The notes under the pieces were generated by a model. That model was given only the letters and a program-made list of their open reading frames with translations. It was not told the origin of the DNA and searched no databases. The position numbers and the translations under genes were made by a program. Shown one piece after another: positions 1 to 5,064 of a stretch of 5,064 nucleotides of DNA. Numbering within the stretch: position 1 is the stretch's first letter; the number at the start of each line of letters is the position of its first letter. The stretch is from NCBI GenBank assembly GCA_002725545.1, contig PBPW01000074.1:6616-11679 (forward strand). The letters run 5' to 3'. This DNA is from Fidelibacterota bacterium. Its GTDB lineage: Bacteria; Marinisomatota; Marinisomatia; Marinisomatales; TCS55.

Positions 1-1007
1 TTTCTCAATACTGTTGAATCGCTGAGATCTCTTTGCATTCTAGAAACAGGAAGCTTTGTGGCGAGATGATTTAAAAGTGCATTTGATATTCCCATATTTC
101 CTTCAGCATTTTCAAATTGAATAGGATTTATTTTATGGGGCATAGCAGAAGAGCCAACTTCGCCTTTAACCTTTTTTTGTTCAAGAATACCCCTTGATAT
201 ATAGTACCAAAAATCTCTGCAAAGATCAGTCAATATTGAATTGACACGAATAATTTGGTGATAGCTTTCTGCTAATGAATCATGTGGTTCAATTTGAGTG
301 GTAATTAAATTGGGCTCAAGCCCAAAAGAGGCAATGAATTTTTTTGCAAATTGTAACCAATTTACTTTTGGGTATGTTGTATGATGTGTGGACCAGGTTC
401 CTGTGGCACCGCCGAATTTGCCAAGAAATAAGTGTTTATTTATCTGATTGGCTTGGCGATTAAGCCTGCTGTAGAATACTGCTAATTCCTTTCCAAATGT
501 CGTTGGTGTAGCAGGTTGGCCATGGGTCATTGATAGCATTGAAGCTGCATCATATTTGATGGCTAATTTTTTTATTTCATCATTTAGCGATGTTAAAATA
601 GGGCTAAACACTTTTTCTAGTGCATTTTTCCACATCAATGTATAGGATAAGTTATTTATATCTTCTGATGTTAGCGCAAAATGAATCCATGGGTGTAGAG
701 ATTTATTAACTTTTTCACGAATGAAATATTCAATTGCTTTTACATCATGATTTGTTGTCTTTTCAATTTTTTTAATCCTTTTTGCATCTTTAACATCAAA
801 ACCCAAATAAATTTTTTGTAATTCCTTCTTTTGCTTATTTGAAATAGGCTGAAGCTCTTTTATCGCCCTTTCATTTGATAGCTTAATCAGATATTCGATT
901 TCAATTTCTAATCGATAGCGCATCAAGGCCATCTCGCTAAAATAAGGTATAAGATCTACTATGTCAGAAGAATAGCGACCATCTAGCGGTGAAATGCTAT
1001 TGTTCAT
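1..1007 (-). CDS. purB: Adenylosuccinate lyase PurB, N-terminal 335 residues (partial, cut by window edge)
   Basis: Adenylosuccinate lyase is a cytosolic enzyme that releases fumarate from SAICAR to give AICAR, and from adenylosuccinate to give AMP. Translating 1007 down to 3 gives 335 open codons that run off the left edge. The family is about 450 residues, so roughly a quarter is missing. Visible motifs in order are SPLDGRY (6-12), TTNHDVKA (84-91), TSEDINN (113-119), THGQPATP (161-168, with the presumed catalytic His162), TTQIEPHD (236-243) and the fumarase/lyase signature GSSAMPHKINP (285-295). That signature sits on the mobile loop holding the catalytic serine (Ser286/Ser287). The text follows the E. 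coli type PurB, including the KLPVSR.QRDL.DSTVLR stretch at the edge. The ATG at 1005-1007 lies 25 nt after purE and starts where the family starts. No strong Shine-Dalgarno is visible, so translation probably depends on the upstream purine genes. Identity is secure. Confidence 0.96.
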   Translation of the reverse strand, partial: MNNSISPLDGRYSSDIVDLIPYFSEMALMRYRLEIEIEYLIKLSNERAIKELQPISNKQKKELQKIYLGFDVKDAKRIKKIEKTTNHDVKAIEYFIREKVNKSLHPWIHFALTSEDINNLSYTLMWKNALEKVFSPILTSLNDEIKKLAIKYDAASMLSMTHGQPATPTTFGKELAVFYSRLNRQANQINKHLFLGKFGGATGTWSTHHTTYPKVNWLQFAKKFIASFGLEPNLITTQIEPHDSLAESYHQIIRVNSILTDLCRDFWYYISRGILEQKKVKGEVGSSAMPHKINPIQFENAEGNMGISNALLNHLATKLPVSRMQRDLSDSTVLR

Positions 1008-1032
1008 TTTCAACTTATGTAATTAATTATAG

Positions 1033-1419
1033 TCAAACACCAAAAATACGCTTGACAGCTAGTGCACAGTTACCTGGATCGATAACTGTTAGCACGGGGG
1101 TGCTGCTTGGCATTTGTAAAGTAGAATGAATATTTACCAACATATCAGCTTTATCTGAAAACGGAGGGCAGCCTATTGTTGGGAATTCAGAATTAGCAGC
1201 TACAAAACCCGATAAAGCATTAGACCTACCTGCGATTGTAATATATACTATATCTTTTTCTTCTTTATTATTGTTTAATATTTCTAAAACCTTTAGCGGC
1301 TGTTTATGAGCTGATGCAGCATGCTGCTCCCATTCTATTCCATATTCATCAAGCTTATCCGTTATTTTTTTTGCATGTGGCTCATCGAAAGTAGAGCCCA
1401 TTATTAGTATAGCTTTCAT
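1033..1419 (-). CDS. purE: N5-independent AIR carboxylase PurE, class II type, short form
   Basis: The product (128 aa) is a PurE-family protein that carboxylates AIR to CAIR. It has MGSTFD (7-12), SAHK (36-39), AGRSNALSG (63-71), CPP (84-86) and MPSSTPVLTV (103-112). The AGRSN and SAHK motifs belong to class II PurE (the animal PAICS domain and Treponema denticola PurE), which uses CO2 directly. Class I enzymes have SAHRTP and AG.AAHLPG and need N5-CAIR made by PurK. I therefore infer direct AIR carboxylation; no purK is seen in the window. Two things are odd. The protein ends at RIFGV, about 25-30 residues short of the usual C-terminal helix, and Phe11 replaces the conserved Ser of MGS.SD. 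The ATG overlaps the purC stop as ATGA and is preceded by AAAGGA six bases upstream. The family is certain; the class assignment rests on motifs. Confidence 0.93.
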   Translation of the reverse strand: MKAILIMGSTFDEPHAKKITDKLDEYGIEWEQHAASAHKQPLKVLEILNNNKEEKDIVYITIAGRSNALSGFVAANSEFPTIGCPPFSDKADMLVNIHSTLQMPSSTPVLTVIDPGNCALAVKRIFGV

Positions 1420-2402
1420 AAAAGATCCTTTAAATTTTGATTAATCCTTTCATTGATCGGCAAATCATTATTTGGAAATGGAAAATCATTACTAGTTATA
1501 GTTTCATATAGATAAATATATCGGCTGGAGAGCTCAACAACCAGCTCATCCGGCGCGTCTGGTAAAGTTTCATCATTATATGGATCGCAATTATCCACAA
1601 ACCAAAGTCGTAAAAACTCTTTATCAATGTTTTGAGGTTCTTGTCCGCTATCTATTCTTTCTTGATAGCTTTCCGCTATCCAATACCTACTTGAATCAGG
1701 TGTATGAATTTCATCAATAAGGACAATATTCCCATCGGCATCTTTACCCATTTCGTATTTGGTGTCCACAAGGATCATTCCATGGCTTAATGCTGTTTTT
1801 TGACCAAATTCAAATAACTCCATTGCCTTTTGACTACAATAATTCCAATCTTCTTCAGTCATCCATTTTTCACTGACAATTTCATCAGGCGATATGGGCC
1901 TATCGTGGTGTTCTTCTTTTGTGGTTGGAGTAATCATATTTTTATCAAGCCTCTGGTTTTTTTTAAGACCATCAGGTAGGGCATTCCCGCAGTATTCTCT
2001 ATCACCATTATTATATACTGTCCAAAGAGATGTGCTTGTACTGCCCGTTATAAAACCTCTTATTACAAATTCTATTGGAAACACATCACACTTTTTTGCA
2101 AGAGTTACATTAGGGTCTGGAATATCAATCACATGATTTGGGATTATATCTTTTGTTTTATCAAACCACCAAGCGCTAGTTAGATTTAGAACTTGACCTT
2201 TAAAAGGTATAGATGCTAAAACCCGATCAAATGCGCTTTGTCTATCCGTAGTTATCAGGGCAATTTTGTCTCCCAGGTCATATTGGTCTCTAACCTTGCC
2301 GGTTTTCTTTTGACCAGAACCAAGAGAAGTATCGGTTAATGTATTGTTAATTGATTTTGAGATGGAGTCTGTATATTTATTTTTTGATTTCATAGTATTC
2401 AT
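1416..2402 (-). CDS. purC: SAICAR synthase PurC, long eukaryote-like form
   Basis: Phosphoribosylaminoimidazole-succinocarboxamide synthase joins CAIR and aspartate, using ATP, to form SAICAR in the cytosol. The 328-residue product has the nucleotide-binding N-terminal lobe GKVRDQYDLGDKIAL (35-49) with TTDRQSAFDR (51-60). After it come IPFKGQVLN (65-73), FPIEFVIRGFITGS (108-121), TPTTKEEHHDRPIS (158-171), LVDTKYEMG (211-219) and LIDEIHTPDSSRYW (228-241). It is longer than the roughly 240-residue E. coli/Bacillus enzyme and resembles the yeast Ade1-like group of about 300 residues, which also occurs in bacteria. The ATG at 2402 lies 26 nt inside the end of the preceding purQ-purS gene. A second in-frame ATG at 2391-2393 (Met4) is equally possible, and neither has a visible Shine-Dalgarno, so initiation is probably coupled to upstream translation. 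The conserved domain begins well after both. The TGA stop overlaps the purE ATG by 4 nt. Confidence 0.96.
   Translation of the reverse strand: MNTMKSKNKYTDSISKSINNTLTDTSLGSGQKKTGKVRDQYDLGDKIALITTDRQSAFDRVLASIPFKGQVLNLTSAWWFDKTKDIIPNHVIDIPDPNVTLAKKCDVFPIEFVIRGFITGSTSTSLWTVYNNGDREYCGNALPDGLKKNQRLDKNMITPTTKEEHHDRPISPDEIVSEKWMTEEDWNYCSQKAMELFEFGQKTALSHGMILVDTKYEMGKDADGNIVLIDEIHTPDSSRYWIAESYQERIDSGQEPQNIDKEFLRLWFVDNCDPYNDETLPDAPDELVVELSSRYIYLYETITSNDFPFPNNDLPINERINQNLKDLL
1426..1431 (-). promoter_or_regulatory. Ribosome binding site of purE
   Basis: AAAGGA on the minus strand ends six bases before the purE ATG (1417-1419). It lies inside the last codons of purC. Together with the ATGA stop/start overlap it supports this start and suggests both re-initiation and independent ribosome entry at purE. 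Confidence 0.7.
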
Positions 2403-3633
2403 AGCAATGGGGGTTAAAAAATATGTTTGTTGTTAAAATTGAATTTATTTCATCATTTAAATTACCGCTTTTGGAATTTATATTCCATATTACTCCTCGC
2501 TTTATATAAGAAATTTCTTTTATATCAAATCGATTTGTAAGGGATTCATATTTAGCTCTTCCATATATATCTTCATTAGGTCTTACTAAAAATGAAGCAT
2601 CATATTTTTCTTTTTTATCTACAATATATTCTTTATTTGAATTAAATAGCTCTCCCGAACTAATTATTTTATTTAAAACATTAGTTGGTTCTCCCTCTAT
2701 ATTTATTTCCCAATGTATTTGTCTATTAACCTCTATATCAAAGCCAAGATGATTTAATGCCGTATTAATAGACTTTGCTTCATTGTCTGTAATTATTAAA
2801 TCAATAATCCATTCGGTCGATTTATCATCTATATTTAATTCTTTTGATTTATGATTAGTTATTGAAAAACTTAGCGGTTGATTAATAGTGGGATAATTTT
2901 CATCAATGTATTCTTTCATTGAAGAAAAAATTGCATCACCGTTTGTAGTTCGCTCTGGATGGGGCATCATCGCCATTACGTTTCCACTGCTATTGCTAAT
3001 AGCGGCAATATTATTCACAGATCCATTGGGATTTGTCGGAAATTCATCAATAATATCACCAGAATCATTAGAATATTTATAAACTAACTGTTCATTTTTG
3101 ATTAATTGATCTAATAAGCCATTTGGCATAACAAACCTGCCCTCACCGTGAGCAAGGGGAATATTCATTAAGATGTTTGGATCTGAATGTCTAGTAAAAG
3201 CGCAGCGTTCAGGGTTTGTCGATAACTTAAGATTAGTCCAGGTGTTGTAATAGCCAACACCAACCACCTGCCCATCAACAATTCTTTTGTTATCGGTTAA
3301 TGCAACTCCAATTGAATAATCTTTTAATCCAGGCACAAGTCCACTCTCTACTAATATTTGTGCTCCATTACATATACCAAGAACCGGTTTACCTTTCTCG
3401 GATTCTATTTTAATTTGCTGCATTATTGGTTCTAATGCGGCGATTACTCCTGCGCGTGAACGATCTTCATAGGAAAATCCACCTATAATAATATACCCAA
3501 CCATATCCGATAATATTTTCTGTGAACTGTTCCATAGCACCTCAACGGGTTCCATACCTACACGCTGACAGGCCATAAATGTTTCCCTTTCAGTATTTGA
3601 GCCTGGGAATTGAATGATGCCTATTTTATGCAA
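2377..3633 (-). CDS. purQ: FGAM synthase glutaminase PurQ fused to two PurS-like modules
   Basis: Residues 1-240 are PurQ, the class I glutamine amidotransferase that releases ammonia from glutamine for PurL to convert FGAR to FGAM. Visible motifs are IIQFPGSN (6-13), GGFSYEDRSRAG (51-62), GKPVLGICNGAQIL (81-94) with nucleophile Cys88, AHGEGRFV (161-168) and MMPHPERT (222-229), which supplies the His225/Glu227 pair. Bacillus-type PurQ is about 227 residues; this protein is 418. After a linker, residues 273-339 and 344-416 each read like PurS, the small bridging subunit of about 80 residues. The first contains INTALNHLGFDIEV and the second IKRGVIWNI, then an ending IFFNP..YEYYEI that resembles the C-terminus of PurS. 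The fusion probably supplies the bridging function in cis. The start is TTG at 3631-3633: a stop codon lies directly upstream in frame, and the next Met (residue 20) would remove the first strand and the PGSN loop. The gene overlaps the end of purM by 8 nt. PurQ is certain; the PurS modules are inferred from weak similarity. Confidence 0.93.
   Translation of the reverse strand: MHKIGIIQFPGSNTERETFMACQRVGMEPVEVLWNSSQKILSDMVGYIIIGGFSYEDRSRAGVIAALEPIMQQIKIESEKGKPVLGICNGAQILVESGLVPGLKDYSIGVALTDNKRIVDGQVVGVGYYNTWTNLKLSTNPERCAFTRHSDPNILMNIPLAHGEGRFVMPNGLLDQLIKNEQLVYKYSNDSGDIIDEFPTNPNGSVNNIAAISNSSGNVMAMMPHPERTTNGDAIFSSMKEYIDENYPTINQPLSFSITNHKSKELNIDDKSTEWIIDLIITDNEAKSINTALNHLGFDIEVNRQIHWEINIEGEPTNVLNKIISSGELFNSNKEYIVDKKEKYDASFLVRPNEDIYGRAKYESLTNRFDIKEISYIKRGVIWNINSKSGNLNDEINSILTTNIFFNPHCYEYYEIKK
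2380..2817 (-). other. Tandem PurS-like modules at the C-terminus of PurQ
   Basis: This is the sub-region of the purQ gene encoding residues 273-418. Module 1 (273-339) starts EWIIDLII, continues INTALNHLGF and ends ELFNSNKEYIV. Module 2 (344-416) starts YDASFLVRPNEDIYG, continues FDIKEISYIKRGVIWNI and ends IFFNPHCYEYYEI. Each has the strand-helix-strand-strand-helix-strand order expected of PurS, and their endings line up with each other. Free PurS is a dimer of identical chains, and the N-terminal domain of the large PurL resembles a PurS dimer, so two modules in one chain make structural sense. Similarity was judged by eye and is low between modules. Module 2 is the more convincing. Confidence 0.7.
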
Positions 3634-4663
3634 TTATTATTTCCTTATCACCCTCAACGACCTTACCTATTTCAAAAACCGGGGTTAATTCTTTTAAAGC
3701 TGTTTTTATATTATCAATATTTGATGAATCAGTAATTAATGCCATGCCAATACCCATATTAAAAGCCCTAAACATTTCAGAATCATCAACAGACCCAATT
3801 GATTGCATAGTTTTAAAAATAGGCAATATAGGCCATGAGCCTAAATTAATATTGACACTACGGTTATCAGGGAGAATGCGTGGAATATTTTCAACTATAC
3901 CTCCACCAGTTATATGAGCAATACCTTTAATTTCAATTTCTTGATCTAACAATATTCTAATATGATTGGTATAATTTATATGAGGCTCTAGCAAAGCATC
4001 GCCAACAGATTGTCCCAAATCAGGTATAACGTCTTTGACAGTATACCCCCCAATATCAAAAAATAATTTTCTGGCAAAAGAATAGCCATTTGTATGTAAA
4101 CCATTTGATGGCAAGCCAAGAATGCTGTCTCCCAAATTGATTTTATTACCGTCAATTATTTTTTCTCTATCTACTATTCCTGTAATAACTCCAACGAGGT
4201 CATGCTCACCAGGTAAGTAGGTATCTGGCATTTCAGCAGTTTCACCACCTACAAGTGAAACACCTGTTTCTTTGCAAGCTGAAACCATGCCCGTAACTAT
4301 TTCATCAATGACATCAGGTTTCAACTTATCGTTCGCGATATAATCAAGGAAAGTCAACGGCCTTGCTCCCATAACTAAAATATCATTTGCTGCTGCACTC
4401 AATAAATCGATGCCTATCGTATTATATTTTTTCATTTTTCTAGCTATGATGGTTTTTGTTCCTACCCCATCAATGCTTTGAACCATTATAGGATCTTTAT
4501 ATTGTGAAATGATATCATTAAGCCTATATAATGATCCAAAACCACCAATTCCGGTAAGCACGTTACCCGTAAATGTTGATTGTACTTTATCTTTTATTTT
4601 ATCTACAGCTTTATTTCCAGCATCGATATCAACTCCAGCAGATTTATAGTTTATTTTTTTCAT
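3626..4663 (-). CDS. purM: AIR synthetase PurM (FGAM cyclo-ligase)
   Basis: Phosphoribosylformylglycinamidine cyclo-ligase uses ATP to close the imidazole ring, converting FGAM to AIR in the cytosol. The 345-residue length is that of the complete bacterial enzyme (Bacillus and E. coli about 345). The N-terminal AIRS domain begins YKSAGVDIDAG (6-16), with GGFGSLY (40-46), SIDGVGTK (63-70), the nucleotide-binding GGETAEMPDTYLPGEHDLVG (139-158) and GLHTNGYSFARK (188-199). The C-terminal AIRS domain has HITGGGIVENIPR (250-262), GSWPILPIF (275-283) and FNMGIGMALI (301-310). No key motif is missing. The ATG at 4661-4663 follows the purL TAA with one base between them. No Shine-Dalgarno is evident, so translation is probably coupled to purL. 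Its substrate is the product of PurL/PurQ, encoded on either side of it. Confidence 0.98.
   Translation of the reverse strand: MKKINYKSAGVDIDAGNKAVDKIKDKVQSTFTGNVLTGIGGFGSLYRLNDIISQYKDPIMVQSIDGVGTKTIIARKMKKYNTIGIDLLSAAANDILVMGARPLTFLDYIANDKLKPDVIDEIVTGMVSACKETGVSLVGGETAEMPDTYLPGEHDLVGVITGIVDREKIIDGNKINLGDSILGLPSNGLHTNGYSFARKLFFDIGGYTVKDVIPDLGQSVGDALLEPHINYTNHIRILLDQEIEIKGIAHITGGGIVENIPRILPDNRSVNINLGSWPILPIFKTMQSIGSVDDSEMFRAFNMGIGMALITDSSNIDNIKTALKELTPVFEIGKVVEGDKEIIIA
3641..3646 (-). promoter_or_regulatory. Ribosome binding site that supports the TTG start of purQ
   Basis: AAGGAA on the minus strand ends seven bases before the TTG at 3631-3633. It sits within the last codons of purM. With the in-frame stop immediately upstream of the TTG and the conserved PurQ N-terminus immediately after it, this fixes the purQ start at a non-ATG codon. 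Confidence 0.75.
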
Positions 4664-4664
4664 T

Positions 4665-5064
4665 TTATAGTTTATTTATTAGCCCATTCTTCCAAGCATC
4701 ATAGCTTTGTTCTATAGATATATTTATTTCATCATTAATTATGATATTGGATTTAACCGTTTTTCCAATCATAAAAACTTCTACACCGTAATCAGAAAAA
4801 CAACGAACAATTTCATTTATATTTTCGTCCTCAACCTCTAAAATGAATCCCCCGGTTTCCGAAAATAATATTTCATCAGTTTTTAGATTGCTTTCAATAG
4901 AAACATTGCACCCAATTTTATTTTTAAAAGTCATTTCAGCTAAAGCTACCGCAACTCCACCATCGGCAATATCATGACAAGACAATACTAAGTTTTTATC
5001 AATACAATCTGTAAGAGCATGAATTTGATTCTTTGCTTCTTGTAAATCTGGCTTGGGCAACGTG
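4665..5064 (-). CDS. purL: FGAM synthase PurL, small type, C-terminal fragment (partial, cut by window edge)
   Basis: PurL is the synthetase subunit that converts FGAR to FGAM with ATP and ammonia supplied by PurQ. Only about 133 C-terminal codons are present. The reading frame stays open to the right edge, so the TTG at 5058-5060 is an internal leucine codon, not a start. The fragment shows the C-terminal AIRS-fold motifs LSCHDIADGGVAVALAEM (26-43, counting that TTG as 1), ILFSETGGFILEV (64-76), VFMIGKTV (95-102) and a closing SYDAWKNGLI (119-128). It ends just after this DAWK segment, as in Bacillus-type small PurL, with no glutaminase domain following. The glutaminase is instead in the separate purQ gene two cistrons downstream. 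The stop codon TAA is at 4665-4667, one base before purM. PurL and PurM share a fold, but purM lies complete next door and the DAWK ending points to PurL. Confidence 0.92.
   Translation of the reverse strand, partial: TLPKPDLQEAKNQIHALTDCIDKNLVLSCHDIADGGVAVALAEMTFKNKIGCNVSIESNLKTDEILFSETGGFILEVEDENINEIVRCFSDYGVEVFMIGKTVKSNIIINDEINISIEQSYDAWKNGLINKL

Follow-up and report, generated by a model that had tools for sequence, protein, structure and literature searches.

A predicted single-chain PurQ-PurS-PurS subunit encoded in Fidelibacterota

Phosphoribosylformylglycinamidine (FGAM) synthetase occurs in Gram-positive bacteria and archaea as three proteins, PurS, small PurL and PurQ (Thermotoga structure 3D54), and in Salmonella (1T3T), E. 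coli and human as one large PurL chain, also called phosphoribosylformylglycinamide (FGAR) amidotransferase or FGAR-AT. The subject of our study is a gene in a 5,064-nt stretch of a Fidelibacterota bacterium (assembly GCA_002725545.1, contig PBPW01000074.1, positions 6,616 to 11,679; hereafter the window), in which PurQ is followed by a tail of two PurS-like units. In the literature, PurL, PurQ and PurS are reported at a 1:1:2 ratio (PMC10912719, citing earlier work), large PurL is reported to begin with a domain structurally homologous to a PurS dimer (PMC3815217, PMC10927867), and homologues to be inefficient without PurS (PMC3815217). The mdPurL of some methanogens carries a PurS-like domain on PurL, and a separate purS is usually lacking (PMC3261824). 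No report of the order PurQ-PurS-PurS was found in the part of the open-licence literature that was covered, preprints and subscription journals being outside the search, while the proteins themselves are already in public databases as PurQ or FGAM synthase I.

We propose that this gene very probably encodes a single-chain PurQ-(PurS)2 subunit of FGAM synthetase, in which the tandem units stand in for the PurS homodimer. The PurQ part would hydrolyse glutamine, and the PurS units would replace the homodimer and dock PurQ on a small PurL, allowing ammonia to reach the FGAR amidation site. The enzyme would then consist of two chains, PurL (about 777 aa) and PurQ-PurS-PurS, with the 1:1:2 PurL:PurQ:PurS ratio presumably fixed by covalent linkage, and one fusion chain plus one PurL would form the complete enzyme. 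Computationally, we established the domain order, a predicted PurS-type fold, a small-type partner PurL in relatives and the absence of PurS matches from almost every related genome that carries the fusion; that the two chains assemble and dock, transfer ammonia and keep a fixed stoichiometry is inferred.

The first-pass annotation of the window had claimed one frame of 418 codons, which was borne out on the minus strand with a TTG start (Table 1). Residues 3-231 of its product match the PurQ model TIGR01737 (1e-59; 201.6 bits, above the curated cut-off of 177.8); the score with NF002957, also a PurQ model, is 187.1 bits, below the cut-off of 212, and the 418-aa protein falls outside the about 220 to 240 aa of free-standing PurQ. 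Judged by sequence, the domain belongs to the PurQ family and the architecture is non-standard. The triad C88, H225 and E227 is invariant in 90/90 rows of an alignment (A4, 80 rows with tail). Across the window and those 45 of the 48 tail-encoding loci that are long enough to align, C and E are present in 46/46 and H in 45/46, with one unknown residue. P0226, a distant fusion protein of 443 aa with 40% identity to the window protein across its full length and the last of 21 proteins from a search with a divergent Opitutales-type tail (E 2.1e-4), reads HFE at residues 227-229 where the usual motif is HPE, the histidine and glutamate being retained.

For the tail (residues 245-418), sequence searches gave no match in Pfam or NCBIfam at a threshold as loose as E 10, none in the PDB and none in a phage collection at E 1e-5. 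It is no chance extension, because a search with residues 240-418 hits 707 out of 979 candidate proteins (E <= 0.001) and because 48 loci encode it in a public genome collection with one genome per species. Among the matches listed, several are from Candidatus Marinimicrobia, and the named proteins bear the names phosphoribosylformylglycinamidine synthase, synthase I or PurQ. The 48 loci are mostly from Ca. Marinimicrobia/Neomarinimicrobiota, which are uncultured marine bacteria, four are from Opitutales or Opitutia (L042, L043, L045, L047) and one is from Spirochaetia (L044). To judge from its nearest relatives, the window would itself be a Marinimicrobia sequence. A few loci are titled otherwise, among them L026 and L028, which cluster with Marinimicrobia in the PurQ tree; their records are titled Parcubacteria and Flavobacteriaceae, and these titles may be misassignments.

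The identification of the tail as PurS had been left to a profile search of residues 245-418, of which the direct Pfam and NCBIfam part gave no match and the profile-profile part (hhalign) did. The profiles were built from 99 tails (78 distinct), 25 free PurS encoded either within the phylum or within the order that includes G028, a genome whose contig is titled Opitutales (two antisense open reading frames [ORFs] dropped), 26 large-PurL N-termini and 7 mdPurL N-termini. PurS is matched by unit 1 with a probability of 82.8 (P 9.4e-6) and by unit 2 with 70.9 (P 3.8e-5), and the two units match each other with 93.5 (P 2.3e-7). Against the large-PurL N-terminus, the highest score is that of unit 2 aligned to the second half of this domain (34.4, P 4.2e-4), and the best tail match to the mdPurL N-terminus reaches 29.5 (P 5.7e-4). 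When the tail profiles were reversed, P lay between 0.017 and 0.74 over 27 comparisons, with 0.11, 0.40 and 0.058 against PurS. A plain PurS hidden Markov model (HMM) at an independent E value (i-E) < 0.01, E being for one sequence, found 71/99 tails versus 2/99 reversed tails, counts that are not independent since 21 of the 99 tails are repeats. Moreover, residues 284-351 of P0226, its unit 1, match Pfam PurS at 25.5 bits, above the cut-off of 22.2. The two units first picked out by eye are thus upheld by unit-PurS and unit-unit matches that beat reversed controls and by a predicted beta-alpha-beta-alpha-beta order in each half.

This secondary structure comes from the second of two models, a confident AlphaFold2 (AF2) prediction from 90 diverse rows, in which the linker at residues 245-271 has no regular structure except at one residue. 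The first model, built from 22 close rows, is weak (mean predicted local distance difference test [pLDDT] 54.5), and its tail superposes on the FGAR-AT N-terminal domain. The tail would be a PurS fold paired like the dimer, by prediction only, with the secondary structure taken from the confident model and the superposition from the weaker one; to this extent the structural comparison came out as the first-pass annotation had anticipated.

PurL was matched in at least 187 of the 199 genomes of the phylum. We classed the 142 genomes, among the matches listed, in which the match covers >=660 of 718 positions, and all class counts hold within that set. PurL scores at or above 853 bits in 68 genomes (PurS in 65, tail in 0), at 571-679 bits in 62 (tail in 59, PurS in 1) and below 515 bits in 12, whose frames measure 943-1011 aa (tail in 0, PurS in 6). 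The three clean score classes go with PurS free, on PurQ or on PurL. Three genomes with a PurL of the fusion type gave no tail match: the fusion gene is cut off by the end of the contig in G083 and G177, and in G170, an unexplained exception, neither purM nor the fusion gene was found on the 8.7-kb contig. Three genomes of the free type, G061, G097 and G119, lack a PurS match; there, the surroundings of purL were negative with custom PurS, PurQ and tail HMMs that matched their positive controls, the rest of these genomes being covered only by the phylum-wide PurS search. Six of the 12 long-frame genomes have no PurS match; the N-termini of seven PurL of this class were read, and all seven begin with PurS-like units, as in L120, whose 997-aa PurL starts with a PurS domain. 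The L120 protein (3983-6976) and its likes in G040, G045, G058, G074, G094 and G112 are of the mdPurL type, about 1000 aa with two N-terminal PurS-like units; PurQ in such genomes, where seen (five loci), is longer, at 276-302 aa.

At 52 loci, a single contig carries first a complete PurL (774-826 aa), then purM and then the fusion gene, either next to one another or separated by as much as a few kb. The start of the window's own PurL falls beyond the window, and the N-terminus was judged in three relatives (L027, L045, L044), whose PurL passes small-type cut-offs, with the FGAR-AT linker starting at residue 18-19 and no PurS domain. These data bear on the alternative that survives best, in which an ancestral PurSS-PurL-PurQ chain, i.e., a large PurL, underwent a rearrangement that placed PurSS behind PurQ and left PurL as a chain of its own. 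The predicted tail fold is the one found at the N-terminus of large PurL, and permuting large PurL circularly and then splitting it yields the new order. Nevertheless, we consider this origin unlikely: the PurQ half scores 201.6 bits with the small-type model versus 76-88 bits, far under cut-off, with large-PurL models, the PurL of the three relatives is small-type, and the tail is nearer PurS than the large-PurL N-terminus, although PurS profiles may win through better conservation. Large-PurL N-domains (PF18076, FGAR-AT_N) were found in 29/115 genomes and in 1/199 of the Marinimicrobia phylum (Fidelibacterota), and the window protein has no PF18076 match.

The tandem PurS reading was weighed further on free purS. 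Among 29 fusion genomes picked from the 48 loci, none had a PurS match, while the same search was positive in 12/14 control genomes, and in a wider draw 66/67 fusion genomes had none, which answers for related genomes the question raised by the first-pass annotation. The window's own genome, to judge from these relatives, would likewise lack purS. Across the 199 genomes, 86 have a PurS match (nine inside frames of 582-1006 aa), 67 have the tail and one, G193, has both (Fisher one-sided p 1.4e-20, relatedness ignored). In the order of G028, the tail is in 13/70 genomes, PurS in 15/70 and both in 0; the tail is found in 2/194 genomes of the phylum of G028 and in 1/149 of that of the Spirochaetia genome.

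Several results weigh against our proposal. The window protein has no Pfam PurS (PF02700) match, the 22.2-bit cut-off not being reached, a weak-or-better match (E <= 1) occurs in only 7/90 rows of A4 (best 3.8e-4), and P0226 is weak against a small custom PurS HMM (i-E 0.0016 and 0.056, one sequence). The superposition comes from a weak model, with pLDDT <50 at residues 246-284 and 62-82 over most of 291-400; as fold searches with the whole confident model listed the PurQ half only, the fold match of the tail rests on that first model. Neither PurS nor the tail was found in 47/199 genomes, so the absence counts depend on assembly completeness. Finally, G193, alone among the 67, carries the fusion and a free PurS-like ORF (L118 847-1086, 79 aa); this ORF lies on a 6.8-kb contig that also carries a distant purM piece (34% identity to the PurM of the window) and has similar GC (0.346 vs 0.337), and the contig may be a stray from binning.

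Such low similarity to PurS and the lack of a Pfam match in the window protein are what would be expected if the tail were a decayed remnant of PurS or a domain of similar fold with a regulatory role, ACT-like or otherwise ferredoxin-like, rather than a working PurS pair; the profiles compared were those of PurS, large PurL and mdPurL. We regard this as still less likely than the rearranged large PurL: both units are conserved and beat reversed controls against PurS, P0226 passes the Pfam PurS cut-off, and the fusion genomes, save G193, have no PurS match. By sequence comparison, the tails have drifted far from PurS. As for an annotation or assembly artefact joining neighbour genes, the window does look like a metagenome record, but such an artefact is very unlikely given many separate assemblies, with similar fusion frames in Opitutales and in the Spirochaetia genome, and among the 67 Fidelibacterota tail matches 63 in open frames of 414-460 aa and 0 with internal stops. 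The four shorter tail frames measure 47, 82, 190 and 382 aa, and three of them end at contig ends. A 923-aa frame in G591 was considered as a larger fusion and rejected as a long open frame in high-GC DNA, with purM in another frame.

Whether the fusion is an intermediate or an independent architecture had been left open at first. The evidence favors an independent fusion of small-type parts, since the PurQ half and the PurL of relatives score as small-type and the tail is nearer PurS than the large-PurL N-terminus; this step is suggestive, not proven. In a quick PurQ tree, all 84 fusion PurQ domains fall on one side of a branch (Shimodaira-Hasegawa-like approximate likelihood ratio test [SH-aLRT] 96) and adjoin free small-type PurQ; the tree is midpoint-rooted with an arbitrary root, and the branches leading to the md and large types are very long. 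It supports a single fusion clade, and one origin with later transfer is consistent with this topology. Altogether, it seems reasonably probable that PurL plus PurQ-PurS-PurS is a further two-chain FGAM synthetase with a single origin, in which PurS was duplicated in tandem and joined to the C-terminal end of a small-type PurQ, and that it became locked to its own PurL class and was exchanged among Fidelibacterota, Opitutales and a spirochaete as a purL-purM-purQSS cluster.

On the minus strand, the window reads purL (C-terminal part only), purM, the fusion gene, purC, purE and a cut purB-like gene; frames related to the latter hold the same position in relatives. By coordinates, the fusion gene shares its first 8 nt with the end of purM and its last 26 nt with the start of purC, and purC and purE overlap by 4 nt. 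Complete PurE relatives of the 128-aa window protein in fusion clusters mostly measure 128-133 aa (up to 152), and PurE in free-PurS genomes of the phylum measures 163-168 aa (four loci).

Table 1. Features of the window (coordinates on the 5,064-nt stretch)
Feature	Coordinates	Strand	Remarks
purQ-purS-purS fusion gene	2377..3633	-	418 codons, TTG start at 3633
PurQ glutaminase domain, residues 1-232	2938..3633	-	Cys88, His225, Glu227
Linker, residues 245-271	2821..2901	-	Low conservation in two alignments
PurS-like unit 1, residues 272-343 (ITDNEA ... HWEI ... GELFNSNKE)	2605..2820	-	hhalign and AF2
PurS-like unit 2, residues 344-418 (RGVIWNI ... ILTTNIFFNP)	2380..2604	-	hhalign and AF2
Small-type PurL, C-terminal part, cut by window edge	4665..5063	-	Presumed partner subunit; NF002290 / TIGR01736 at C-terminal end of profiles
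purM, between purL and fusion gene	3626..4663	-	TIGR00878 1.3e-108
purC, next gene in cluster	1416..2402	-	PF01259 6.8e-68
purE, 128 aa	1033..1419	-	PF00731 1e-32
purB-like gene, cut by window edge	3..1013	-	Named by reading the sequence

The fusion would add a domain order to a textbook case of gene fission and fusion, with the PurS pair attachable at either end of the complex, and would explain the apparent lack of purS in many marine genomes that annotate this gene as PurQ or FGAM synthase I. One phylum with three solutions that all but exclude each other (PurS free, PurSS on PurL or PurSS on PurQ) may offer a natural experiment on the assembly of a glutamine-dependent enzyme. If our proposal is true, the protein is a natural single-chain PurS dimer for testing assembly order and the bridging role of PurS.

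Compared with the known systems, the locus resembles the three-protein enzyme in its PurQ type, with 3d54_D as the best Foldseek match at 33% identity, its predicted PurS fold and, in relatives, its PurL type; unlike that enzyme, with its separate homodimeric PurS, the two PurS copies are here joined together and placed on the C-terminus of PurQ. The tail, in the first model, superposes on the PurS-dimer-like N-terminal domain of large PurL, but the latter is one chain of ~1300 aa in the order PurSS-linker-PurL-PurQ, whereas here PurL is a chain apart from PurQ-PurSS, the two being encoded by separate genes with purM between them. With the methanogen mdPurL and the 943-1011 aa Fidelibacterota PurL (12/142), the fusion shares a PurS-like domain attached to another subunit and the usual absence of a separate purS; mdPurL was reported for archaea, and similar PurL was seen here in Fidelibacterota. 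These PurL proteins, however, bear the PurS pair N-terminally and leave PurQ as a free protein, whereas in the fusion described here the pair follows PurQ at its C-terminal end and it is PurL that is free.
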